Shown: positions 6,011 to 64,000 of the stretch, one piece after another
How the letters are laid out: each line of letters opens with the position of its first letter
How positions within the stretch are numbered: position 1 is the stretch's first letter
DNA from: Pegea sp. RAD2-039
Taxonomy: Eukaryota; Chordata; Thaliacea; Salpida; Salpidae
Assembly: GCA_034620365.1 (NCBI GenBank)
Contig: JAQGEQ010000247.1
Span: forward strand, 46,193-110,192
Direction of reading: 5' to 3'
Length of the DNA stretch: 64,000 nt
Position numbers and translations under genes: made by a program
The notes under the pieces: generated by a model
Database searches by the model: none
Seen by the model: only the letters and a program-made list of their open reading frames with translations
Told to the model about the DNA's origin: nothing

Positions 6011-6530
6011 CTCAAAACAGTTCAGTTTACAATCACTCAAATGTATTCAACTAGAGAATATTAAACAATAAAAAATGAGTTTTAATGACCAATGATTTAA
6101 AATATTCAGTATTCAGACCGCAGAGTAAGTTTTTAAACTGATTAATGCATTTTTTAAGTTGTTATATTTCAGTGAAAGATTTTATTAGCTAATTTGAAAA
6201 ATTGTTTATCAAAACTAAAATACTAAACCAGAACAAAATCTTAAACATAGTAATGAAATAGAAACTGATATAAAATGGTTAGTTGTGTAAATATCCTACA
6301 GATTTAATTTTAAAACTTTCTTATTGAAAATGGTGAATTTATTCAGTTGGTAGAAGACATAGCTTGAAGCAAATCAAAGATTTGAAAGTTGTTTAGCAAC
6401 AGTGACGTCTGGCGTTAGATTTTTCAAGATTTCTTAATTTTAAAGTATTCAGATAAAATTCAAAAACTTTCGTATTTTCAGAAAATCTTTTTAATATTTT
6501 TTGTAAATAATTGTTATTAATAGCTGACTA
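6011..6530 (+). repeat. Local duplicate block B, copy 2
   Basis: Near-identical to 898-1420, including the conserved AGTGACGTCTGGCGTTAG. With block A and both upstream modules it shows that a unit of about 1.3 kb was duplicated and later interrupted. Confidence 0.8.
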
Positions 6531-6569
6531 CAAGCTTTTTAAGATACTTGCTTTTAATAACTGATTTGT

Positions 6570-9948: not shown

Positions 9949-11652
9949 CTAGTCATCAGCAGTCAAATAGATAACGTTGTCACCAAACTCTCCAATGGTT
10001 GCATAACAAGTTTCATTAGTGACGTCATCATTTGATTTGTTCAAACTTGATTTTAAATTGATATAATAAAAACTATCAACTACATCATCAGTGACGTCAC
10101 TAGAAGGTTTTCCACATATTGGCCTCATTGCAAGATAGTGATGTCGATTAATATAGATGGTTTCAGGCACTGTATAAAAATGTTCTTCATTATAATTTTG
10201 ATAATGATTGACTTTATTGTTTATGTTATCAATTGCACCATCAACGACTTCTTCAACGTTACTATAAATTGCTCTTTTTGCATTCATTTTTGCTTCTGGG
10301 TAGTTTTGTAGACAACAATTAATTTCTTCAGGTTCTGTATAAATACTTTCATCTTCAGGTTTTCGATATTTATTATATCGAGTTGTTTTGATATTATCTT
10401 TGTCTTCAGTCCGGTCATAGATTGCTTTACTAGAACTGATCTTTTTTTGTACATGATTTCGTTGGCCAATTTTTATGGTTTCAGGCACTGTATAAAAATG
10501 TTCTTCATTATAATTTTGATAATGATTGACTTTATTGTTTATGTTATCAATTGCACCATCAACGATTTCTTCAACGTTACTATAAATTGCTCTTTTTGCA
10601 TTTGTTTTTGCTTCTGGGTAGTTTTGTAGACCACAACTAATTTCTCCAGGCTCTGCATAAATGCCTTCATCTTCAGGTTTTCGATATTTATTATATCGAG
10701 TTGTTTTGATATTATCTTTGTCTTCAGTCCGTTCATAGATTGATTTATTAAAATCGATCTTTCTTGCTGAATAATTTTTTTCGACAATTCTTATGGTTTC
10801 AGGTTCTATAGGAAATCTTTTTTTATCAAACGTTTCATAAACTTCATAACCTTCAGCTGGATCGATTAAGACATCTTCTGCGTCATCATCTACGTCACCA
10901 ACTATATCATATATTGCACTTCTAACACTTATTTGAGGTACTGAAAAATGTTGCTGGTCAATATTAATGACATTAGACTCTAAATAGAGGTTTTGTTCAG
11001 ATCCATGATGCATATTGTATCGAGTTCTTGCGTTTTCAATTATGCTATTAAGTGGTTGCTGACTTTTAGTTAAATCTTGCTTTTTCTTTAAATGAAAAAT
11101 CTTCCAAAGCAAAATAATAAAAAGTGCAATCAAAATAATTGATAAAACAGATAAGCCCATAATACAAGCTTCTTTTACTCCAATATTATCCCAAAAAAGA
11201 TTCGTCTTTGTCGAACCTAAACTTTTCTTCGTTTTTAAACACAAGAACGAAAGATTACGATTTTCTTTGACAATATAAAATCGATCCAAAGGTCTTAAAA
11301 GGATAGGCTTACATTTTTTACTTTGTAATTTAGTTAGTTTTTTGTCGTAATTCGTTATATTAAACTCTGTACCATCAAACCATTTATAAATTCCGTTTTT
11401 ACAGTCCAGTCCACTATGAAAGCGAGCTCTAGTTTCTGTTCTATTATTTTCATTAAGGCATTCATAGGTTACATTTCTAACTTCATTCATAATATTCTGA
11501 TCTTTAACTGGAAGCGGTATTCCAGCATTTCTTTTACAATATTTGATTGCTTCAAACTTTTCTGTAGGTTTATCTACTACTTCAATCTGACCAATACTAA
11601 TATCAAAAAATCTCTTGCATTTCTCTTTTTTAATTTTATAACTTTTATGCAT
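9949..11652 (-). CDS. C-type-lectin-like receptor with tandem tyrosine-motif tail
   Basis: A 567-aa single-exon ORF. Residues about 10-140 look like a C-type lectin-like domain: FEAIKYCKRNAG, then FHSGLDCKNGIYKWFDGTEF (the family's GL...W.DG core) and a final FLC. Residues about 161-186 are a membrane helix, followed by KIFHLKKK. The 380-residue cytoplasmic tail has a 106-residue (318 bp) repeat in two near-identical copies plus a degenerate third. These carry phosphotyrosine-type motifs YAEP, YTEP, YTVP, YSNV, YDIV and YATI. The last pair, YATI-x8-YLTA, resembles an ITAM/ITIM layout. Role inferred: cell-surface recognition signalling through SH2 proteins. The frame has no signal peptide. An acceptor-like TTTTACTAG just before the ATG suggests an unseen 5' exon. 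A poly(A) signal is possible at 9722-9727. Confidence 0.75.
   Translation of the reverse strand: MHKSYKIKKEKCKRFFDISIGQIEVVDKPTEKFEAIKYCKRNAGIPLPVKDQNIMNEVRNVTYECLNENNRTETRARFHSGLDCKNGIYKWFDGTEFNITNYDKKLTKLQSKKCKPILLRPLDRFYIVKENRNLSFLCLKTKKSLGSTKTNLFWDNIGVKEACIMGLSVLSIILIALFIILLWKIFHLKKKQDLTKSQQPLNSIIENARTRYNMHHGSEQNLYLESNVINIDQQHFSVPQISVRSAIYDIVGDVDDDAEDVLIDPAEGYEVYETFDKKRFPIEPETIRIVEKNYSARKIDFNKSIYERTEDKDNIKTTRYNKYRKPEDEGIYAEPGEISCGLQNYPEAKTNAKRAIYSNVEEIVDGAIDNINNKVNHYQNYNEEHFYTVPETIKIGQRNHVQKKISSSKAIYDRTEDKDNIKTTRYNKYRKPEDESIYTEPEEINCCLQNYPEAKMNAKRAIYSNVEEVVDGAIDNINNKVNHYQNYNEEHFYTVPETIYINRHHYLAMRPICGKPSSDVTDDVVDSFYYINLKSSLNKSNDDVTNETCYATIGEFGDNVIYLTADD
10157..10792 (-). repeat. 318-bp tandem coding repeat in receptor tail
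   Basis: Two 318-bp units (10157-10474 and 10475-10792) are nearly identical, and a third partial unit starts near 10793. The length is a multiple of three, so the frame is kept (106 aa per unit). Low divergence between units points to recent internal duplication or gene conversion. Confidence 0.85.
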
Positions 11653-33297: not shown

Positions 33298-34382
33298 CTT
33301 CTTCCTAATACCACAAGACTTGTACCAAGTGTTGCTCAAATCACGTTAATACATTTTGGAAAAGCAGAAAACGGAAGTTACATTTCAGTTACAGGTCAAA
33401 CACTTCCTATTCCCATCAAATCGGACAAAGGTCATTGGGTAAAAATTGAGATAACTGATTCTGTCAATAGAATGCTAATTAATGAAAATATGTTTAAACT
33501 GATGAAAGTAATACCTACAAAAGATGCTCAAGATATTGTGTTGAGGACCAATGAAGAAAAGCTTGTAAGTTTTGTTTACAAATTTTGTTTACAGTTTAGA
33601 TATTCTTGTATTAACTAACAAATATTTCAAATAATAATTACTCTTTAAAAAAGTGATGTTCTATTTTGTTTTTGATAAATTAGTTTAATTGAAAATCAGA
33701 TGCTTTATTTCGAGCTAAATTTTGTACCAAGCTAACAGCTGTTTACAGATTCGAAAAAAATCTTATCAAAAATATAATTCTTTCATGAAATTTTTAAAAT
33801 ATAAAATAAAATATGTTGAAGGGTTAAATAGTTCAAGATCTAATGTTTTAATTTTTATTAAATATTACTTTTAATTAAATATTTTATTAACTAAATGGTA
33901 AAAATAAGACACATGTTGTTATTATTCACTAATATTGTTTACAAACAATAATAAAATTAATGAATTTTCAGAAACCTTACATGCAAACTGCACTTATGGA
34001 AGATACAACCCTATTGAAAAGAGGAAAACGTTCTTCTGGCTCTCAGACACCATCAGAGTGCTCTGGGAAGAATGTAAATCTGCATTGCTGTTTGTTTGAC
34101 ATGGAACTTAATTTTGAACAAGTGGGCATGGATTGGGTTCTCTACCCAAAAAGCTTTAATGCTAAGTACTGTACCGGTGGATGTAATTATGCTCATACTC
34201 AGGATACGATGAGAGGAAAAATGCTAGCTCATGCAACTGATTATTTGACAGAAGACCAAACTAAGAGCTGTTGTGCTCCTAAGGAAATGCTGCCACTCAG
34301 TATTATATATTGTGACAGTAACAACAATGTTGTCATCTCAAAAGTCGAAGATATGGTAATTTCAGGATGTAATTGTGTTTAG
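33298..34382 (+). pseudogene. 5'-truncated copy of the TGF-beta ligand gene
   Basis: Duplicate of 61966-63045. Homology starts abruptly at CTTCCTAATACC, inside exon 2, so the signal-peptide exon and the first part of exon 2 are missing. The remaining exon 2 (to donor CTT|GTAAGT at 33565) and exon 3 (33972-34382, after TTTTCAG) have no stop or frameshift. They still encode the KRGKR furin site and the nine-cysteine mature domain. Replacements against the intact copy include Arg to Cys in IIYRDSN, giving a tenth cysteine, and Ser to Asn in the terminal GCSCV. A poly(A) signal AATAAA lies at 34598-34603. It has no recognisable promoter or secretion signal, so it is probably non-functional, unless a new 5' exon has been captured. 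Confidence 0.85.
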
Positions 34383-35345
34383 AAAGTAATGCGTTAAAAT
34401 AATTCTGCAAGTAGTTTGTTTACTGCAAACTTTGCATCAAAACAAACACTGCAAAGTAACTTATTGTTTAAAATAAACTAGCTATAATTATGTGTTTATG
34501 TAATCTTTGCAGTTCGTTTTGTTTTCGATAGTTTGTTAAATGCTGCGACATTTGCTGACTACTTGGTGTTTAGTAAACATATTTTCAAAGGTTTTAATAA
34601 TAAAGTCTGAAAAATCTATAATTTTAAGTTTTTTGAAGTAATTTATTAGCAGTAAAATTGAATGAGAAAAAAAAATTTAGTTTAAGCTACTTTTGAGTTA
34701 CAAGCTCAGTCTTATGAATTTCTAAATTGATTTATCTATTATTGGATGAATAATTTAACTATAGAAAGTGAAAGGTTAGAAAAGTTTGAGAAAAATTTGA
34801 GAAAAAAATGTAATATGTTAAAACAGATAGAAGCATTACAAATTAAAAAAATCATGTGCTTATAAATAATACTTTTAGTATCTATTTGACTAGTACCTCT
34901 CTTGCTTGATAAAAACATCCAACTTTAGACGGAACCAGAGAATAAAGCTTATTTGCTAAACAAACAATCTAATAGCGTTTTTTTAACCGATGATGGCAAC
35001 ACTCCCTTTCTTTCCTACTCCAACATTTTTAAAATTGTTTCTGAGATGATAGATCTTGACATAGCGTAGGATATGGTTGCTAAGACTAATTCTTCTGTGA
35101 AATTATCAGTTTCCAAAACCTCCTGATCATACTACTCTCTAGTTTTTAGGAAAAACTACTTCCATCTTATTACTAGCCCTATGTCTACTCTTTAACATCA
35201 TTATAAGGCGAGGAAGAGTCTAGTTTTGCTGAATTTAGTTTTCTGCAGATCAGAAGAGCATATCATTCACAACCATATGATCATTGTTTCAATGGAACAC
35301 CATCTAATATCTGATATCCAGCTAAGCTTTGTGAAACGAATATCA
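33298..35345 (+). repeat. Segmental duplication, copy 1 (partner 61966-64000)
   Basis: At least 2.04 kb is nearly identical by eye to 61966-64000, including introns, 3' UTR and the downstream LINE relic. The partner is cut by the window end, so the true length is unknown. Low divergence in the introns indicates a recent event. Confidence 0.9.
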
Positions 35346-44964: not shown

Positions 44965-45667
44965 TTAGCCTTTGGCCGAACAAGAGCAAAAAATCGTTTT
45001 TTTTAAACAATCTACTTCTTTTATATGGTGCAATGCATATATCAACTTACTATAAACCCTTTTGAAAGATTCGAGCACACCTTGATTTATTGGTTGTATT
45101 GGTACATTAACATTTGGAGGCAGAAACGTAGCAGTGGTTTTGCCATCAGCTGATATAAGTTTGTCCTCATTTGGATAGGCCGAGCAATTATCGAGGAACA
45201 AACTGGCCCTTTCTTCTTGTCCAAGTTCTCTCAGCTTTTGTTTTGCTTCGGGAACGAAACAGTTAAAAAACCAATCTCGCAAAATATCACAGTCGACCCA
45301 AGCATTTGCTTGATTTCTATAGACAACGGGCAGCGCCTCCTTATTGAGATCACGAAAACAACGCGGGTTTTTAGCCTTACCAATTAACAATAAAGGTAAC
45401 TTTATTGTCCCACTGGCAGTTGCATAGCCATTTATTGTCACCCTGTCTTTTGCTTTTTCTTCCATCCGACCGGTTATGTACTGATGCGGCAGTATGTCCA
45501 GACAACATTCTAAAGTACAATCCGGTTTCATCGCAATTAAATATTTGATGTTCGGAGTAGCCCTCGGCTATACTAGAAAATTCATTAACGAATTGCTTAG
45601 CAGATGAGCCATTTAAACTTAAATTCTCACCGCATGTTTCGAGATTACTCCAAAGATTATAGGCCAA
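44965..45667 (-). mobile_element. Broken Tigger/Jerky-type (pogo superfamily) transposase
   Basis: Two overlapping minus-strand frames (45667-45377 and 45531-44965) together give the DDE core: FNCDETGLYFRMLSG (first Asp); a frameshift near 45480; INGYATASGTIKLPLLLIGK; LFLDNCSAYPNEDK (second Asp); and FLPPNVNVPIQPINQGVLES. In the family the last motif is QP(L/I)DQG with the third catalytic Asp; here it is Asn. The N-terminal HTH/CENP-B region and terminal repeats are missing. It is inactive because of the frameshift, the lost acidic residue and truncation. Confidence 0.8.
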
Positions 45668-46400: not shown

Positions 46401-47677
46401 CAATTTTTTTTATCTTTTTTTTCCTTCAAATTGTTTTGAATCATTACATATTCTAAGAGTTAAACCAACTTTCTATATAAAAAATTTACTTGATTTAGAA
46501 AATATATAAAAACGTTTTATTGAAGTTTCTTATTTTTTCTCTTATTATTTTTTAAATGTATGAAATCTTAGTTTTTATTTCGTTTATTGATCCATTAAAT
46601 TATATATAGGTCTTTTTTCATTTTATTTTAGTTATCAAAGTAGAAAAAATTAAATTAAATTTATATAAATATATATAATAAAATATTTTCAAAACTATAT
46701 ATATATAATTTTATAAATCTGAAAATTAAACTATTAATGAATGATAAAGTTAAATAATTTACTAAATAATATTTTAAATTATCTGAATAATTTTGAATTA
46801 AATTCTAACTCCAGTTAAAAATTGATATACTTTCAGAATTGTTTGTTTAAGTTATTGTTATTTATAAGCAATTGACGTAAAACACTATTTGAACAAATTT
46901 TTATATTAAACTAATGTTAAATGGCCTACGCTTTCTTGAAACCAACTTTATTTTGGTGTCATTTATCATTCAGTCATTTAAATTCATTATTCGAAAGGTT
47001 CAAAAGTTTAACTTTAATGACATTTAGTGTTATTCAACTAATTAATTTCCAAAAATTACAAGCTTCTCAATAAGCAGCTGCTGATACAACCATTTATAAA
47101 AATAAAAGATTAAATTTCTATGAGTCATATCCAAGAAAGCAATGTATAAACGACTTTTGTTTTTATAAGATAAAAACGTTTTGACAGAAGTCTAGATGAA
47201 ACATATTTTATGTTTTTACATCTCTATACTTTTATAAGCAATATAAAATATTATACAAAAGCTTATAAAAATTATATATACCTCTTTGTGTGAAAAAAAA
47301 AACAAACGAAAACATTTGATCCCTTTTATTCATTTTTAAAATTATACAAAATCATCTTAATTATTTTGATGATTGATAAACAGGATAACAACTTAAGAAA
47401 TATGGGTAATGGTTTTATGCTTCAATTTTCTTCAGCAATCAAAATAACTAAATGTTTTCATGTAGCTGAGAAGTGTATTAAAACTAGATTATCTAACAAC
47501 TGATAATATAAAAATTGTTTGTTTTAATTTTATCAGCTTATCAATTAGTTTTTTTTGGCTACAGAAATAAAACGTTTTAATAAATCTTTGTCTTTTATTA
47601 AGTTATGACAATTTATTGACAACAATTTATAAAGCTTTCATATTTTTTTTCGTTTTAAGAATGCATCCAATTGCGAT

Positions 47678-47845
47678 ATGAAGACACTTATCATTAAAAG
47701 TAATAAATGGGAAGTTTTCGCAGCAGATCTCTCTGACCAGCGTTCTGTTTTCTGCAAACAGTTGAAGGAAAACGAAAAAAATATGATATTAAGAAAGAGG
47801 AAAACTTTTGGTAACAACTATTTCATGCTATTCTTGTTTATTTAA
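47678..47845 (+). CDS. Small ORF in block D, copy 1 (55 aa), doubtful
   Basis: ATG to TAA, beginning MKTLIIKSNKWEVFAADLSD. The same frame of identical length is open in block D copy 2 (58635-58802). Most differences between the copies change the amino acid, so there is no sign of purifying selection. The antisense frame is also open. Probably chance, or a relic exon (a GGTAAC donor-like site lies inside). Confidence 0.2.
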   Translation: MKTLIIKSNKWEVFAADLSDQRSVFCKQLKENEKNMILRKRKTFGNNYFMLFLFI

Positions 47846-48113
47846 AGCTTGTATAACTAGCTTTATGTTAGAAGCAAACAAAGTTAAATAAGCCTCAACA
47901 ATTCATGTGAAAACTGTTGATATTTAAGTATATATGACAGTTTTACTCGTCATTGTTGTTTACTGCTAATGTTTATTGAAAAAAGAAAATTAAATCACAA
48001 TTAGAAGTGATATACATTTTGTTAGAGCAGATGATTTAAAATGAATGTACTATATCACTAAAAGTATACACAGATTCATTTTAGATAAGGTTTTTCAATC
48101 TAAAATGTCATAT

Positions 48114-48180
48114 GGCGGCGATCATCAAATGATATACTATCAGGAAGCGATGACCTCATATAGAGCATAATGTTTAACAT
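48114..48180 (+). repeat. E element, copy 1 (in block D)
   Basis: Contains GGCGGCGAT, ATCATCAAATGAT and ATCAGGAAGCGATGACCTCAT. Here the CRE is mutated (TGACCTCA). Confidence 0.75.
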
Positions 48181-48190
48181 TTTGTTTATC

Positions 48191-50488: not shown

Positions 50489-51313
50489 ATGTGGAATTCT
50501 TCAGATGAAATCTTTAGACAACAAAAAGAAGAAAAACGTCGTCAACAAGAAGAAAATAGACTTCGTAAGCAGGAACAGCAAGAAAGACTTCAACGAGAAA
50601 GAGAAGAAAAGGAGAGATTAAAGCGTCTAGCTGAATCTCATCTAATGCAACAAGCGTCAGCAAATAACAGACAAAGAGAAATAATGCTTCGTCAACAAGA
50701 ACAAGAACGTTTTCAAAAGCAGGAAGAAGAGCGTCGTCAACAGGTAGAAAAGCGTCATCGACAAGAAGAAAAACGACGTCAACAGCAAGAAGAGAAACGT
50801 CGTCAACAAGAAGAAAAACGTCGTCAACGAGAAGAAAAGCGTATTAAGCGTGAACAAGAAAAGATGCGTCAAGAAGAAGAAGCAAAGGAGATAATTCGTA
50901 GACAAGACGAATACAATCGTCGTGAACAAGAAGAAAGACGTCAACGAAAACAAGAAGAAAAACGTCGTCAGATGGAGCAAAAACGTTATCAGCGTGAACA
51001 AGAAAGAATAAGAAAACAAGAAGAAAAACGTCGGCAAGAGGAATAAAAACGTTTTAAACGAGAACAAGAAAAGATGCAAAAAAAAGAAGCAGAAAAGGAA
51101 GTACTTCGTCAGCATTACGAAGAAAATCGTCGTGAACGAGAAAAACGACGTTTACTACAACAAGAAGAAAAACATCGTCAACTGGAACAAAAACGTTATA
51201 AGTTTGAACAAGAAAAAATGCTTCAACAAGAACGAGAAAAGCGTGATCGAGTCGAAAAAAGGCTCCAAAGACAAAGAGAAGCAATGTTAAAAAAAGATAA
51301 AACCAATCGCTAG
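50489..51313 (+). pseudogene. Trichohyalin-like heptad-repeat gene, one in-frame stop
   Basis: A 275-codon frame beginning MWNSSDEIFRQQKEEKRRQQ and ending AMLKKDKTNR. It is built almost wholly of Glu, Gln, Arg and Lys in seven-residue units (KRRQQEE), expected to form a long charged helix or coiled coil. TAA at 51044-51046 replaces a GAA codon of the repeat (CGGCAAGAGGAA|TAA). The frame stays open beyond it to 51313, where the C-terminus matches the paralogue. So either a pseudogene, a shortened protein of 185 aa, or a base error. The paralogue is at 53934-56281 in inverted orientation. Function unknown; trichohyalin-like only in composition. Confidence 0.7.
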
Positions 51314-53933: not shown

Positions 53934-56281
53934 CTAGCAGTGAGTCTTGTCATTTTTTAACATTGCTTCTCTTTGTCTTCGTAGCCTTTCTTCGTGTCGA
54001 CGACTTTTCTCTTCTTCTTGTTGTCGACGTCTTTCTACTTGTTCACGACGAATTTGTTCGTTATGCTGACGAACTACCTCGCTTTCTTCTTCTTGTCGAC
54101 GCATCCTTTCTTGTTCACGTCGAAAACGTTTTTCTTCTTGTTTTCTAAAGTTTTCTTGATCACGTTGATATCTTCTTTCTTCTTGTTGACGACGTTTCTC
54201 TTCTTCTTGTTGAAGGCGCTTTTCTTCTTGTAATCGACGATTTTCTTGTTCTTGATGACGAAGTATCATTTCTGTTTTTGGTTTGTATGCTGACGTTTGT
54301 TGCATAAGATGAGATTCAGTCAGACGCTTTGTTCTCTCCTGTTGTTCTCTGTCTCTTTGAAGTTTTTCTTGCTGTTCCTGCTTACGAAGTCTATTTTCTT
54401 CTTGTTGACGACGTCTTTCTTCTTGCTTACGACATTTTTCTTCTTGTTGGCGACGTTTTTCTTCTTGTTGAAGGCGTTTTTCTTCTTGTAATCGACGATT
54501 TTCTTGTTCTTGTTGACGAAGCATTATTTCTCTTTGTCGGTTATTTGCTGACGTTTGTTGCATTCGCTGATATTCAGTCAGACGCTTTGTTCTCTCCTGT
54601 TCTTCTCTTTCTCGTTGAAGTCTTTCTTGCTGTTCCTGCTTACGAAGTCTATTTTCTTCTTGTTGACGACGTTTTTCTTCTTGTTGACGACGTTTTTCTT
54701 CTTGTTGACGACGTTTTCTTCTTGTTGACGACATTTTTCTTGTTCTTGTTGACGAAGCATTATTTCTCTTTGTTGGTTATATGTTGACGCTTGTTGCATA
54801 AGATGAGATTCAGCTAGACGCTTTATTCTCTCCTTTTCTTCTCTTTCTCGTTGAAGTCTTTCTTGCTGTTCCTGCTTACGATGTCTATTTTCTGCTTGTT
54901 GACGACGTTTTTCTTCTTGTTGACGACGTTTTTCTTCTTGTTGGCGACGTATTTCTTCTTGTTGAAGGCGTTTTTCTTCTTGTAATCGACGATTTTCTTG
55001 CTCTTGTTGACGAAGCATTATTTCTCTTTGTTGGTTATTTGTTGATGCTTGTTGCATTAGATGAAATTCAGCTAGACGCTTTATTCTCTCCTGTTCCTCT
55101 CTTTCTCGTTGAAGTCTTTCTTGCTGTTCCTGCTTACGAAGTCTATTTTCTTCTTGTTGGCGACGTTTTTCTTCTTGTAATCGACGATTTTCTTGTTCTT
55201 GTTGACGAAGCATTATTTCTCTTTGTCGGTTATTTGCTGACGCTTGTTGCATTCGCTGATATTCAGCTAGACGCTTTATTCTCTCCTGTTCCTCTCTTTC
55301 TCGTTGAAGTTTTTCTTGCTGTTCCTGCTTACGAAGTCTATTTTCTTCTTGTTGGCGACGTTTTTCTTCTTGTAATCGACGATTTTCTTGTTCTTGTTGA
55401 CGAAGCATTATTTCTCTTTGTCGGTTATTTGCTGACGCTTGTTGCATTCGCTGATATTCAGCTAGACGCTTTATTCTCTCCTGTTCCTCTCTTTCTCGTT
55501 GAAGTCTTTCTTGCTGTTCCTGCTTACGAAGTCTATTTTCTTCTTGTTGACGACGTTTTTCTTCTTGTTGACAACATTTTTCTTCTTGTTTTTGTTGACG
55601 TCTTTCTTCTTGTTCACGACGATTGTATTCGTCTTGTCTACGAATTATCTCCTTTGCTTCTTCTTCTTGACGCATCTTTTCTTGTTCACGCTGAATACGC
55701 TTCTCTTCTTGTTGACGACGTTTTTCTTCTTGTTGACGACGTTTTTCTTCTTGTATACGCATCTTTTCTTGCTCACGTTGAACACGTTTTTCTTCCTGTT
55801 GACGCATCTTTTCTTGTTCACGCTGAATACGCTTCTCTTCTTGTTGACGACGTTTCTCTTCTTGTTGACGACGTTTCTCTTCTTGTTGACGACGTTTCTC
55901 TTCTTGTTGACGACGTTTCTCTTCTTGTTGACGACGTTTTTCTTCTTGTTGTTGTTGACGTCTTTCTTCTTGTTCACGACGATTGTATTCGTCTTGTCTA
56001 CGAATTATCTCCTTTGCTTCTTCTGCTTGACGCATCTTTTCTTGTTCACGCTGAATACGCTTCTCTTCTTGTTGACGACGTTTTTCTTCTTGTTGACGAC
56101 GTTTCTCTTCTTGCTGTTGACGTCGTTTTTCTTCTTGTTGACGACGTTTTTCTTCTTGTTGACGAAGTTTTTCTTCTTGCTGTTGACGACGTTTTTCTTC
56201 TTGTTGACGACGTTTTTCTTCTTGTTGACGAAGTTTTTCTTCTTGCTGTCGCTTATAGATTTCACTTGTAGAATTCCACAT
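53934..56281 (-). pseudogene. Trichohyalin-like heptad-repeat gene, one frameshift
   Basis: Starts MWNSTSEIYKRQQEEK (ATG at 56279-56281) and runs 567 aa to 54578. The same repeat then continues in another frame (54734-53934) to the conserved end AMLKNDKTHC. The break is a single missing base in an A-run near 54715 (AAGAAGAAAACG where all other units have one more A). Repaired length would be about 783 codons. The basic unit is the 21-bp heptad KRRQQEE. A 195-bp (65-codon) higher-order unit with ENRLRKQEQQERLQRE and YQRMQQASANNRQREI is repeated at about 55,000-55,530. The whole protein is predicted helical and charged, with no signal peptide or TM. A sequencing or assembly error at the homopolymer is a real alternative to pseudogenisation. 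Confidence 0.7.
54990..56260. repeat. 21-bp heptad and 195-bp higher-order tandem repeats
   Basis: GTTGACGACGTTTTTCTTCTT and variants repeat for most of the span (21 bp = 7 codons on the minus strand). At least three 195-bp units are nearly identical, with equivalent points at 55076, 55271 and 55466. Confidence 0.9.
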
Positions 56282-57618: not shown

Positions 57619-59150
57619 AAGGAATTTTCCATAAAATTTTTTTATCTATTTTTTCGGTCAAATTGTTTTGAATCATTACATATTCTAAGAGTTAAACAAA
57701 TTTTCTATATAACAAATTTACTTGATTTAGAAAATATATAAAAACGTTTTATTGAAGTTTCTTATTTTTTATCTTATTATTTTTTAAATGTATGAATTCT
57801 TTTTAAATCTAGTTTAAATCAACTTTATTTTGGTGTCATTTATCATTCAGTTATCTAAATTCATTATTCGAAAGGTTCAAAAGTTTAACTTTAATGACAT
57901 TTAGTGTTATTCAACTAATTAATTTCCAAAAATTACAAGCTTCTCAATAAGCAACTGCTGATACAACCATTTATAAAAATAAAAGATTAAATTGCTATGA
58001 GTCATATCCAAGAAAGCAATTTATAGACAAAAATTCACTATTAGGTTTGTAGAAATGTTTTTTGACCAATTTAAATTACCATAATTATAAAACAAAAAAT
58101 ATTTCCTTTTTTAAATGCTGAGAAAATGATAAAAACTTTTTGACAAAAGTCTCGATGAAACAAATTTTAAGTTTTTACATCTCTATACTTTTATAAGCAA
58201 TATAAAATTCTATACAAAAACTTATAAAATTGATATATACCTCTTTGTGTGAAAAAAAAATAACAAACAAAAAAGTTTGACTTTTTTATTCATTTTTAAA
58301 ATTATACAAAATCATCTTAATTATTTTGATTATTAATAAACAGGATAACAACTTAAGAAATATGGGTAATGATTTTATGCTTCAATTTGCTTCAGAAATC
58401 GAAATAATTAAATCTTTTCATGTAGCTGAGAAGTTTATTAAAACTAGATTATCTAACAACTGATAATTTAAAAAATTGTTTGTTTTAATTTTATCAGCTT
58501 ATCAATTAGTTTTTTTTGGCTACAGAAATGAAACGTCTTAATAAATATTTGTCTTTTATAAAATTATGACAATTTATTGACAGAAATTTAAAAAGCTTTT
58601 ATTTTTTTGTTTTAAGAGTGCATCCAATTGCGATATGAAGACACTTATCATTAAAAATAATAAATGGGAAGTTTTCGCAGCAGATCTCTCTAACCAGCGT
58701 TCTGTTTTCTGCAAGCAGATAAAGGAAAATAAAAAAAATATGATATTAAAAAAGAGGAAAACTTTTGGTAACAACTATTTCATGCTATTCTTGTTTATTT
58801 AAAGTTTGTACAACTAGCTTTATGCTAGAAGCATACAAAGTTAAATAAGCCTCAACATTTCATGTGAAAACTGTTAATATTTAAGTATATATGACAGTTT
58901 TACTCGTCATTGTTGTTTACCGCTAATGTTTATTGAAAAAAGAAAATTAAATCACAATTAGAAGTGATATACATTTTGTTAGAGCAGATGATTTAAAATG
59001 AATGTACTATATCACTAAAAGTATACACAGATTCATTTTAAATAAGGTTTTTCAATCTAAAATGTCATGTGGCGGCGATGAATCATCAAATGATTTACTA
59101 TCAGGAAGCGATGACGTCATATAGAGCATAATGTTTAACTTTTATTTTTA
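57619..59150 (+). repeat. Duplicated block D, copy 2
   Basis: Direct copy of 46388-48190. Includes the small ORF (58635-58802) and ends with E element copy 4. Confidence 0.85.
59071..59130 (+). repeat. E element, copy 4
   Basis: GGCGGCGATGAATCATCAAA, CTATCAGGAAGCG and a perfect TGACGTCA (59112-59119). Followed by TTTTTACGCCTATTGTAA and TTAGCTTTGTACTAATCTTTC, both also after copy 3. Confidence 0.8.
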
Positions 59151-61051: not shown

Positions 61052-63045
61052 ATGAATCGAAAAAGTATGATTTTTTTAACTGGTTGTATCTTATGGTTGG
61101 TTATTATGGCACCTCTTGCTTCAACAAGCTTCATCGCAACCGATAGATGTGAAGAAAATGATAAAACCTGTATGCTACACCAACGTTTACAAGGCAACAG
61201 AATCAAACAATTTCAGAAGGAGTTGTTAGTAAAGCTGAATATGAAAGAACCACCGAACGTGAGCAAAAGTGACTTGCCTAGTCAGATTACTATTGCTTCA
61301 ATGAAGAAAATACATGGAATCGATCGTTTGGACAGACTCTCTGAAATTAACTCTCGAAAAATGAAAATTGAAACAAAGGAAATTTTCAGTATGTCTAAGC
61401 TCGGTAAGTGGATATGTTTACTTGGTTTAAGTTTTTTAATTTGAAAAATTTTACTGAGAAACTGGAAGCAAGTATTTCTGTACTTACTAGTCTGTTGTAG
61501 GAATTGAATTGTTATGTTGTTGTTTGGATATTTAAAAGAATATTTTTGCAAAAACATGATTGATTGTTATGTTACAAAAATATATTAAGAAGTTGTTAGT
61601 TTGGTTAAAATTCATCATTTTGTATGTTTCAATTATTTAGCTCTTTAATTATCTTTGGTTTTGCTGATTGACTGTTAGCTATACAATTGGAATATTTGAA
61701 AAAAACTTTTGCCTTTTCGTTATGATTTCTATCTTTTTGTTAGAATATTGTGTTGATATGAATAATAAGTTCTCTAGTTGTTATTTGTTTACATACATAT
61801 TTCCTAGAATCAACAAAAATTGATTTTTTGATTATTTTCTAAAGATATATTTGTTTCAGTTCCTAACGAAAAGATTGAAGAAAGCGATGAAGGTTGCTAC
61901 TTTGAAATGACAGATGACAAAAAGAAGTTTAAAGCTCAAAAATCAACTTTGTGGCTTTATATTCTTCCTAATACCACAAGAATTGTACCAAGTGTTGCTC
62001 AAATCACGTTAATACATTTTGAAAAAGCTGGAAACGGAAGTTACATTTCAGTTACAGGTCAAACACTTCCTATTCCCATCAAAACTGACAAAGGTCATTG
62101 GGTAAAAATTGAGATAACTGATTCTGTCAATAAAATGCTAATTAATGAAAATATGTTTAAACTGATGAAAGTAATACCTACAAAAGATGCTCAAGATATT
62201 GTGTTGACGACCAATGAAGAAAAGCTTGTAGGTTTTGTTTACAAATTTTGTATACAGTTTAGATATTCTTGTATTAACTAACAAATATTTCAAATAATAA
62301 TTCCTCTTTAAAAAAGTGATGTTCTATTTTGTTTTTGATAATTTATTTTAATTGAAAATTAGATGATTTATTTCGAGCTAAATTGTGTACCAAGCTAACA
62401 GCTGTTTACAGACTCGAAAAAAATCTTATCAAAAATATAATTCTTTCATGAAATTTTTAAAATATAAAATAAAATATGTTGAAGGGTTAAATAGTTCAAC
62501 ATCTAATGTTTTAATTTTTATTAAATATTACTTTTAATTAAATATTTTATTAACTAAATGGTAAAAATAAGACACTTGTTGTTATTATTCACTAATATTG
62601 TTTACAAACAATAATAAAATTAATGAATTTTCAGAAACCTTACATGCAAACTGCACTTGTGGAAGATACAACCCTATTGAAAAGAGGAAAACGTTCTTCT
62701 GGCTCTCAGACACCATCAGAGTGCTCTGGGAAGAATGTACATCTGCATTGCTGTTTGTTTGACATGGAACTTAATTTTGAACAAGTGGGCATGGATTGGG
62801 TTCTCTACCCAAAAAGCTTTAATGCTAAGTACTGTACCGGTGGATGTGATTATGCTCATACTCGGGATACGATGAGAGGAAAAATGTTAGCTCATGCAAC
62901 TGATTATTTGACAGAAGACCAAACTAAGAGCTGCTGTGCTCCTAAGGAAATGCTGCCACTCAGTATTATATATCGTGACAGTAACAACAATGTTGTCATC
63001 TCAAAAGTCGAAGATATGGTAATTTCAGGCTGTAGTTGTGTTTAG
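61052..63045 (+). CDS. TGF-beta superfamily precursor, myostatin/activin type (376 aa)
   Basis: Three exons: 61052-61403, 61860-62227 and 62635-63045, GT-AG, phases 1 and 0. Residues 1 to about 24 are a signal peptide (MIFLTGCILWLVIMAPLAST). The prodomain has CMLHQRLQGNRIKQFQKELL and EPPNVSKSD (like the myostatin prodomain start), then TLWLYILPN and GHWVKIEIT. KRGKR (256-260) is a furin site. The 116-residue mature part has nine Cys (mature positions 10, 19, 20, 47, 51, 80, 81, 113, 115), the nine-cysteine pattern of TGF-beta, activin and myostatin, with YCTGGC and CCAPKEMLPLSIIY. Family role: secreted disulfide-linked dimer signalling through Ser/Thr kinase receptors and Smads. Length is close to myostatin. 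The ATG at 61052 is preferred; the in-frame TTG upstream is not a credible start. A poly(A) signal AATAAA lies at 63262-63267. Confidence 0.93.
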
Positions 63046-64000
63046 AAAGTAATGCGTTAAAATAATTCTGCAAGTAGTTTGTTTACTGCAAAATTTGCAT
63101 CAAAACAAACACTGCAAAGTAACTTATTGTCCAAAATAAACTATTTATAATTATGTGTTTATGTAATCTTTGCAGTTCGTTTTGTTTTCGATAGTTTGTT
63201 AAATGCTGCGACATTTGCTGATTACTTGGTGTTTAGTAAACATATTTTCAAACGTTTTAATAATAAAGTCTGAAAATCTATAATTTTAAGTTTTTTGAAG
63301 TAATTTATTAGCAGTAAAATTGAAAAAGAAAAAAAAAACTTTGTTTAAGCTACTTTTGAGTTTCAAGCTCAGTCTTATGAATTTCTAAATTGATTTACCT
63401 ATTATTGGATGAATAATTTAACTATAGAAAGTGGAAGGTTAGAAAAGTTTGAGAAAAATTTGAGAAAAAAATGTAATATGTTAAAACAGATAGAAGCACT
63501 ACAAATTAAAAAAATCATGTGCTTATAAATAATACTTTTAGCATCTATTTGACTAGTACCTCTCTTGCTTGATAAAAACATCCCACCTTAGACGGAGCCA
63601 GAGAATAAAGCTTATTTGCTAAACAAACAATCTAATAGCGGTTTTATAACCGATGATGGCAACACTCCCTTTCTTTCCTACTCCAACATTTTTAAAATTG
63701 TTTCTGAGATGATAGATCTTGACATAGCGTAGGATATGGTTGCTAAGACTATTTCTTCTGTAAAATTATCAGTTTCCAAAACCTCCCGATCATACTACTC
63801 TCTAGTTTTTAGGAAAAACTACTTCCATCTTATTACTAGCTTTATGTCTACTCTTTAACATCACTATAAGGCGAGGAAGAGTCTAGTTTTGCTGAATTTA
63901 GTTTTCTGCAGATCAGAAGAGCATATCATTCACAACCATATGACCACTGCTTCAATGGAACACCATCTAATATCTGATGTCCAGCTAAGCTTTGTGAAAC
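61966..64000 (+). repeat. Segmental duplication, copy 2 (partner 33298-35345)
   Basis: Contains the last two thirds of TGF-beta exon 2, intron 2, exon 3, 3' UTR and flank. It runs off the window end, still matching at 64000. Confidence 0.9.
63575..64000 (+). mobile_element. Decayed LINE reverse transcriptase relic, copy 2
   Basis: Same relic as 34920-35345, with the same in-frame stops. It predates the duplication. Truncated by the window end. Confidence 0.7.

Follow-up and report, generated by a model that had tools for sequence, protein, structure and literature searches.

A putative C-type-lectin-like receptor with a long, tyrosine-rich tail of repeated half-modules

What kind of protein joins a lectin-like head to a very long tyrosine-rich tail, and how did so many tyrosines come to stand in one member of a gene family? 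The 64-kb window (the whole stretch of DNA that was analysed) raises this question at a single gene, which a preliminary description had taken for a lectin-like receptor. The frame on which that proposal stood is intact, being free of stops through 567 codons in a window of 25% G+C, and its parts are laid out as follows.

9949..11652, minus strand: single open reading frame of 567 codons, with a short N-terminus, a C-type-lectin-like domain (CTLD), a stalk, a transmembrane (TM) helix and a long tyrosine-rich tail
11233..11619, minus strand: C-type-lectin-like ectodomain, residues 12-140, with cysteines at 12, 39, 65, 84, 114 and 138
11104..11169, minus strand: transmembrane helix, residues 162-183, hydropathy 3.08, followed on the tail side by a basic KKK cluster
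9952..11103, minus strand: predicted cytoplasmic tail, residues 184-567, with 30 tyrosines and six YxxP motifs

The ectodomain and its family

Pfam Lectin_C matches in 17 of 20 family members (E<=1, best 2e-6), the predicted structure and fold searches all agree with the CTLD ectodomain first proposed. C39, C138, W91 and D93 are invariant in all 20 members, and G94 is kept in at least 90% of them (alignment A1). The window protein itself has no match to Lectin_C, and by sequence alone its link to solved CTLDs is weak: a profile run against solved chains gave a best E of 0.049, with CTLDs the majority, though not the whole, of 27 listed chains, and the window sequence on its own matched one unrelated chain. 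Fold-search matches to vertebrate NK-complex CTLDs have sequence identities of 8-18% among the matches listed, and as sugar-binding CTLDs score equally high, a special kinship with NK-complex receptors is not demonstrated. EPN/QPD and WND are the calcium-site motifs of sugar-binding C-type lectins; by eye, they are absent from the window ectodomain and unconserved in alignment A1. The outside part, as modelled, is a CTLD without the usual calcium-site motifs.

The window gene is the only family member found on its contig (C36). With the protein of L042, a paralogue on C22, as query, matches appeared at 122 places on C100, C107, C200, C22, C247, C254, C73, C14, C78 and other contigs. Sixteen of the matches are interrupted by stops, in at least three cases two matches are parts of a single gene, and there are short fragments among them. 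Our estimate is therefore about a hundred genes, most of them not read singly. Ectodomain and TM helix share one frame in 31 of the 32 long frames that were read. The Lectin_C profile matches the genome at 102 places; seven of them overlap the list obtained with L042, and the family is therefore mostly invisible to that profile at the threshold used. A separate, clustered set of more canonical Lectin_C matches lies on G000:C249, C250, C30 and others. In L012 and L015 (G000:C22 and C100), Thr-rich tandem repeats expand the stalk and not the tail; the L012 frame showed no TM helix.

As support for allorecognition, positive selection was looked for in the ectodomain and not found, no part of either of two paralogue groups having a pN/pS clearly above 1. 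For the N-half, core and C-half of the CTLD the values are 0.81, 0.38 and 0.88 in group A (nine genes; 0.8 in a first pass with the CTLD taken whole) and 0.87, 0.47 and 0.85 in group B (six genes), with bootstrap intervals that cross 1. Stalks (1.46 and 1.47) and tails (1.12 and 1.07) likewise have intervals that all cross 1, and the TM segment gave 1.35 (interval crossing 1) in group A and 0.22 (below 1) in group B. The hints of a possible immune or allorecognition role are how large the family is and how its members cluster.

Topology and the question of a leader

Residues 162-183 are the sole strongly hydrophobic helix of the window protein. In 26 of 31 TM-bearing members the flank towards the tail has a more positive charge than that towards the ectodomain (means +3.1 vs -0.6), which predicts a tail lying inside. 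Cys 12 and Cys 65 are both present in 16 of 20 members and one is found alone in a single member; the three members with neither are close relatives and may represent a single loss event. Such co-occurrence is expected of a disulphide and would place residue 12, near the start codon, in an oxidising compartment. An N-out/C-in topology of the window protein is thus supported, as a prediction. Vertebrate NK-complex CTLD receptors such as NKR-P1, CLEC-2, LLT1 and Ly49 have the type II arrangement, their tail being N-terminal; the window protein has the reverse order, from an N-terminal CTLD to a C-terminal tail.

No N-terminal signal peptide lies within the window frame, the best 19-residue hydropathy near the N-terminus being 0.12. 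The start region could be read in 42 family frames: in 39 of them an in-frame ATG lies at most 32 codons before the conserved motif, and the other three are fragments; base composition would lead us to expect 14.5 (maximum 24 over 1000 simulations), in a statistic that treats related members as independent and so overstates their independence. In five of the 42 frames the interval from the last in-frame stop to the ATG holds no AG. In three, which are neighbouring close paralogues on C100, none occurs all the way to the conserved motif, and a canonical acceptor for a leader exon is therefore impossible there. In the window gene an AG stands directly at the beginning of the open frame with a T-rich stretch before it, which leaves room for an upstream exon. 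An ordinary type I receptor, its upstream signal-peptide exon missed when the genome was read, would make use of exactly this arrangement. The similar placement of the ATG across the family and the close paralogues that lack any AG before the conserved motif argue against such an exon, and we consider it unlikely, though worth weighing.

A signal-peptide exon is, on this reading of the frames, probably absent from the family. The preliminary description would have counted the lack of a secretion signal against a receptor, a test that consequently does not apply cleanly. Instead, the TM helix may act as a reverse signal-anchor, with the N-terminus translocated without a cleaved leader. A leaderless route of this type exists in neuregulin precursors, in which, according to the available text of PMC6026874, an internal hydrophobic domain doubles as TM segment and signal sequence behind an N-terminal ectodomain, as in the topology proposed here. 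Neuregulin precursors give rise to growth factors and contain EGF-like and Ig-like parts, and the analogy is one of topology only. If the leaderless N-out topology is true, a large CTLD family enters the secretory pathway in the manner of neuregulins, and lectin surveys that require a signal peptide miss it by design. As far as its available text goes, a survey of six rotifer genomes reported secretory lectins to be few and not expanded; its criteria demanded a signal peptide and excluded TM segments, so a family of this type could not have appeared there (PMC8878817). Expanded CTLD gene sets are described for bivalves and nematodes in the accessible parts of PMC10140915 and PMC9085898, and this expansion is what those families have in common with the present one.

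Half-modules of the tail

The tail was described at the outset as unusually long, and the family bears this out. From K184 it runs for 384 residues (385 under a slightly different cut) with its 30 tyrosines, whereas 29 of the 30 other family tails examined have 30-144 residues and 0-9 tyrosines; the remaining one has 503 residues and four tyrosines. This last belongs to the paralogue L044:4126-6201 (G000:C107), whose cytoplasmic tail is Asp-rich with DDVTDTRDDVS-type repeats.

The window tail had also been read as a series of near-identical tandem repeats of 106 residues. The repeat is real, but its copies are two only; beneath it lies an older pattern of half-modules, W0 to W4, which we cut by eye at recurring IY motifs.

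10157..10803, minus strand: 318-bp tandem repeat (Tandem Repeats Finder: 2.0 copies, 91% matches, score 1105)
10747..10923, minus strand: half-module W0, residues 244-302, the most diverged (W0-W2 score 69 vs 22 shuffled)
10591..10746, minus strand: half-module W1, residues 303-354, with YRKP and YAEP
10429..10590, minus strand: half-module W2, residues 355-408, with YSNV and YTVP
10273..10428, minus strand: half-module W3, residues 409-460, a recent copy of W1, with YRKP and YTEP
10075..10272, minus strand: half-module W4, residues 461-526, a recent copy of W2 plus an older C-terminal part, with YSNV, YTVP and YLAM

By blastn, 10157-10485 and 10475-10803 are 91.8% identical. Over the full 318-bp register the two 106-codon copies share 279 of 318 nt; only the first 90 codons make up the recent duplicate itself (258/270 nt identical), and the last 16 codons are unmatched because copy two continues into the older C-terminal end. 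The half-modules resemble one another and those of relatives, with 40 of the 55 pairs tested at P<=0.05. Scores against shuffles are 54 vs 23 for W1-W2, 60 vs 21 for W3-C31a, 99 vs 23 for W4-C31b, 95 vs 27 for W4-L042b and 88 vs 30 for L042a-L042b; among the 55, the pairs W0-W1, W1-L042b and W3-L042b did not reach P 0.05.

A search of the genome with the tail alone, which the preliminary description had recommended for finding paralogues, matched just three places besides the gene itself, two on C22 and one on C31, with four matches in all, and the window tail is thus close to unique in this genome. Among intact paralogues, L042 on C22 comes closest in its tail; the nearest relative by tail lies on C31 and is split over several frames. 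Each of these has two half-modules and the window gene has five. The second docking motif differs among them, being YSEI or YSEL in L042, YTDP or YTKP in C31, and YAEP, YTEP or YTVP in the window gene. The order that fits these sequences would be an old two-module tail, growth to three half-modules (a middle step that we infer) and, last, a recent duplication of W1-W2. Of the suggestion that whole motif sets are copied by unit duplication, one recent event thus stands, atop older ones. Docking-site growth by module duplication can here be read stepwise in one gene, from the two half-modules of its relatives to five. The half-modules, a YxxM-x-P motif common to relatives and the gene family itself were all lacking from the preliminary description.

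Tyrosine motifs and their possible use

Two further features of the tail bear on its function.

10120..10137, minus strand: YLAMRP, the YxxM-x-P motif common to the window tail and five of the other 30 family tails
9958..10005, minus strand: YATI-x8-YLTA pair, residues 550-565, not an ITAM

The tail had been called rich in YxxP and YxxV, and the first of these holds: YxxP occurs six times vs 1.2 when shuffled (P 0.001; a count reached in 0 of 5000 shuffles in a second run) and, with the second repeat copy removed, three times vs 0.8 (P 0.03), a modest enrichment once the duplicated block is counted once. Enrichment of YxxV was rejected, the window tail having three vs 1.7-1.8 in shuffles (P about 0.26). 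Any YxxP at all is found in five of the 30 other family tails, and a docking grammar is therefore not a family trait. Counted over 31 related and hence not independent tails, YxxM (as YLAM, YLTM, YVSM, YVFM and YIDM) occurs in 10 vs 1.6 in shuffles (at most six in 500 shuffles) and YxxM-x-P in six, the window's included, vs 0.04 (at most two); across the tails examined YxxI/L numbers 30 vs 17.8 expected and [DE]xY falls below chance (15 vs 32). The counts of YxxP and YxxM-x-P support reading the tail as one bearing SH2-type tyrosine motifs. The C-terminal pair noted earlier is also present; as an ITAM (YxxI/L-x6-12-YxxI/L) it was rejected because its second motif has A instead of I/L at +3. 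The ITAM pattern fits one of the 31 tails, that of C100:92040-92762, and has no match in the window tail.

We propose a model, held with about even confidence on the sequence evidence, of a single-pass surface receptor with a CTLD outside and a multivalent SH2-docking scaffold as its tail inside. Ligand binding would cluster the receptors, and Src- or Abl-type kinases would phosphorylate the six YxxP sites, which could then form a multivalent platform for Crk/Nck-type SH2 adaptors; YxxM-x-P may recruit PI3K-type SH2 domains. In this single member of the family, half-module duplication would have added YxxP sites. SH2 matches were found at 33 places in the same genome, many of them single exons; they are matches at the level of the domain, none named as a Crk or PI3K orthologue. 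DCBLD1 and DCBLD2, like the window protein, are single-pass with many intracellular YxxP motifs (eight and seven, respectively), which the available text of PMC6029619 describes as needed for CRKL SH2 binding; unlike it, they have a CUB-LCCL-FV/FVIII ectodomain, and no homology is claimed. Repeated cytosolic YxxP is shared also with the substrate domain of BCAR1/p130Cas and with choanoflagellate transmembrane proteins, two phosphopeptides of which bind Crk SH2, in an account whose available text leaves a CTLD unmentioned (PMC5043372). BCAR1 has SH3 and FAT-like domains, unlike the window protein. Together with the 33 SH2 places, these YxxP precedents lead us to favour a multivalent SH2-docking receptor. 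At the level of titles and the beginnings of abstracts, which leaves absence from print unproven, we found no published description of a leaderless CTLD family with YxxP repeats.

The main rivals of SH2 docking are endocytic use of YxxM and neutral growth of the tail. YxxPhi is the type of sorting signal used by the clathrin adaptor AP-2, and YxxM fits its definition. An endocytic receptor would use YLAM or YLTM in this way, for uptake and recycling and not for SH2 signalling, and the excess of YxxM over shuffles suits such a role. However, the extra P two residues on, present in six of 31 tails, is superfluous for AP-2, as are the YxxP copies of the window gene and its C31 relative, and we think endocytosis a rather improbable account of the tail. 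Alternatively, the repeats may have changed in length almost neutrally, as part of a disordered region, and the additional tyrosines would have no function. Repeats have indeed grown elsewhere in the family, in the stalks of L012 and L015 and the tail of L044; tail pN/pS in groups A and B, paralogue groups other than that of the window gene, is 1.12 and 1.07, with intervals that cross 1; and within the 270-nt core nine of the 10 codons (out of 90) that differ between copies change the residue, which does not demonstrate purifying selection on the copies. Yet all nine core tyrosines are kept in both copies (weak evidence with 10 changed codons), YxxP exceeds the shuffled expectation and the frame stays open to its end, and neutral growth seems to us fairly unlikely. 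That the gene is unexpressed or recently dead, as the broken C31 relative and the several family matches with stops might suggest, is very unlikely given its stop-free codons at low G+C and its conserved fold-defining residues.

Beyond SH2 docking by this one protein, a wider picture can be drawn, although as a whole it is speculative and probably too ambitious. It would comprise some hundred CTLD receptors, leaderless and mostly encoded in a single frame, held N-out by their TM helix, with tails built partly from a duplicating phosphotyrosine module of about 53 residues whose motif switches between YxxI/L (YSEI and YSEL in the C22 paralogue), YxxP and YxxM. Ligand specificity and signalling output would diversify by gene and module duplication, amounting to an NK-receptor-like recognition system built independently.

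Elsewhere in the window, a 2.04-kb segment is present in two copies, 97.0% identical, at 33299-35337 and 61962-64000, the second running into the window end. Each copy holds a TGF-beta-like frame (33960-34382 and 62623-63045; 135/141 letters identical, stop counted), and the first, the one run against Pfam, matches TGF-beta at E 3.4e-23, which suggests an animal source. A monogonont rotifer was considered, with G+C content among the grounds; the bdelloid spliced leader, a Brachionus manjavacas primer (PMC2746195; up to 3 mismatches allowed) and mitochondrial COX1 each gave 0 matches. As a monogonont EST set yielded no trans-spliced leader (PMC1925144), the negative result with the bdelloid leader does not speak against monogononts. 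Related inverted arrays of long Glu/Arg/Gln-rich repeats occupy 50489-51300 (plus strand) and 53934-56281 (minus strand); they include a frame of 567 aa at 54578-56281 and tandem periods of, for example, 21, 66, 195 and 360 bp. A DDE_1 transposase frame lies at 44965-45531 on the minus strand (Pfam E 5.6e-26, profile positions 1-135 of 177). Two further repeated segments, at 47169-48187 and 58128-59147 (about 1.0 kb, 93.5% identity) and at 900-1464 and 6012-6567 (0.56 kb, 95.4% identity), are perhaps mobile elements.
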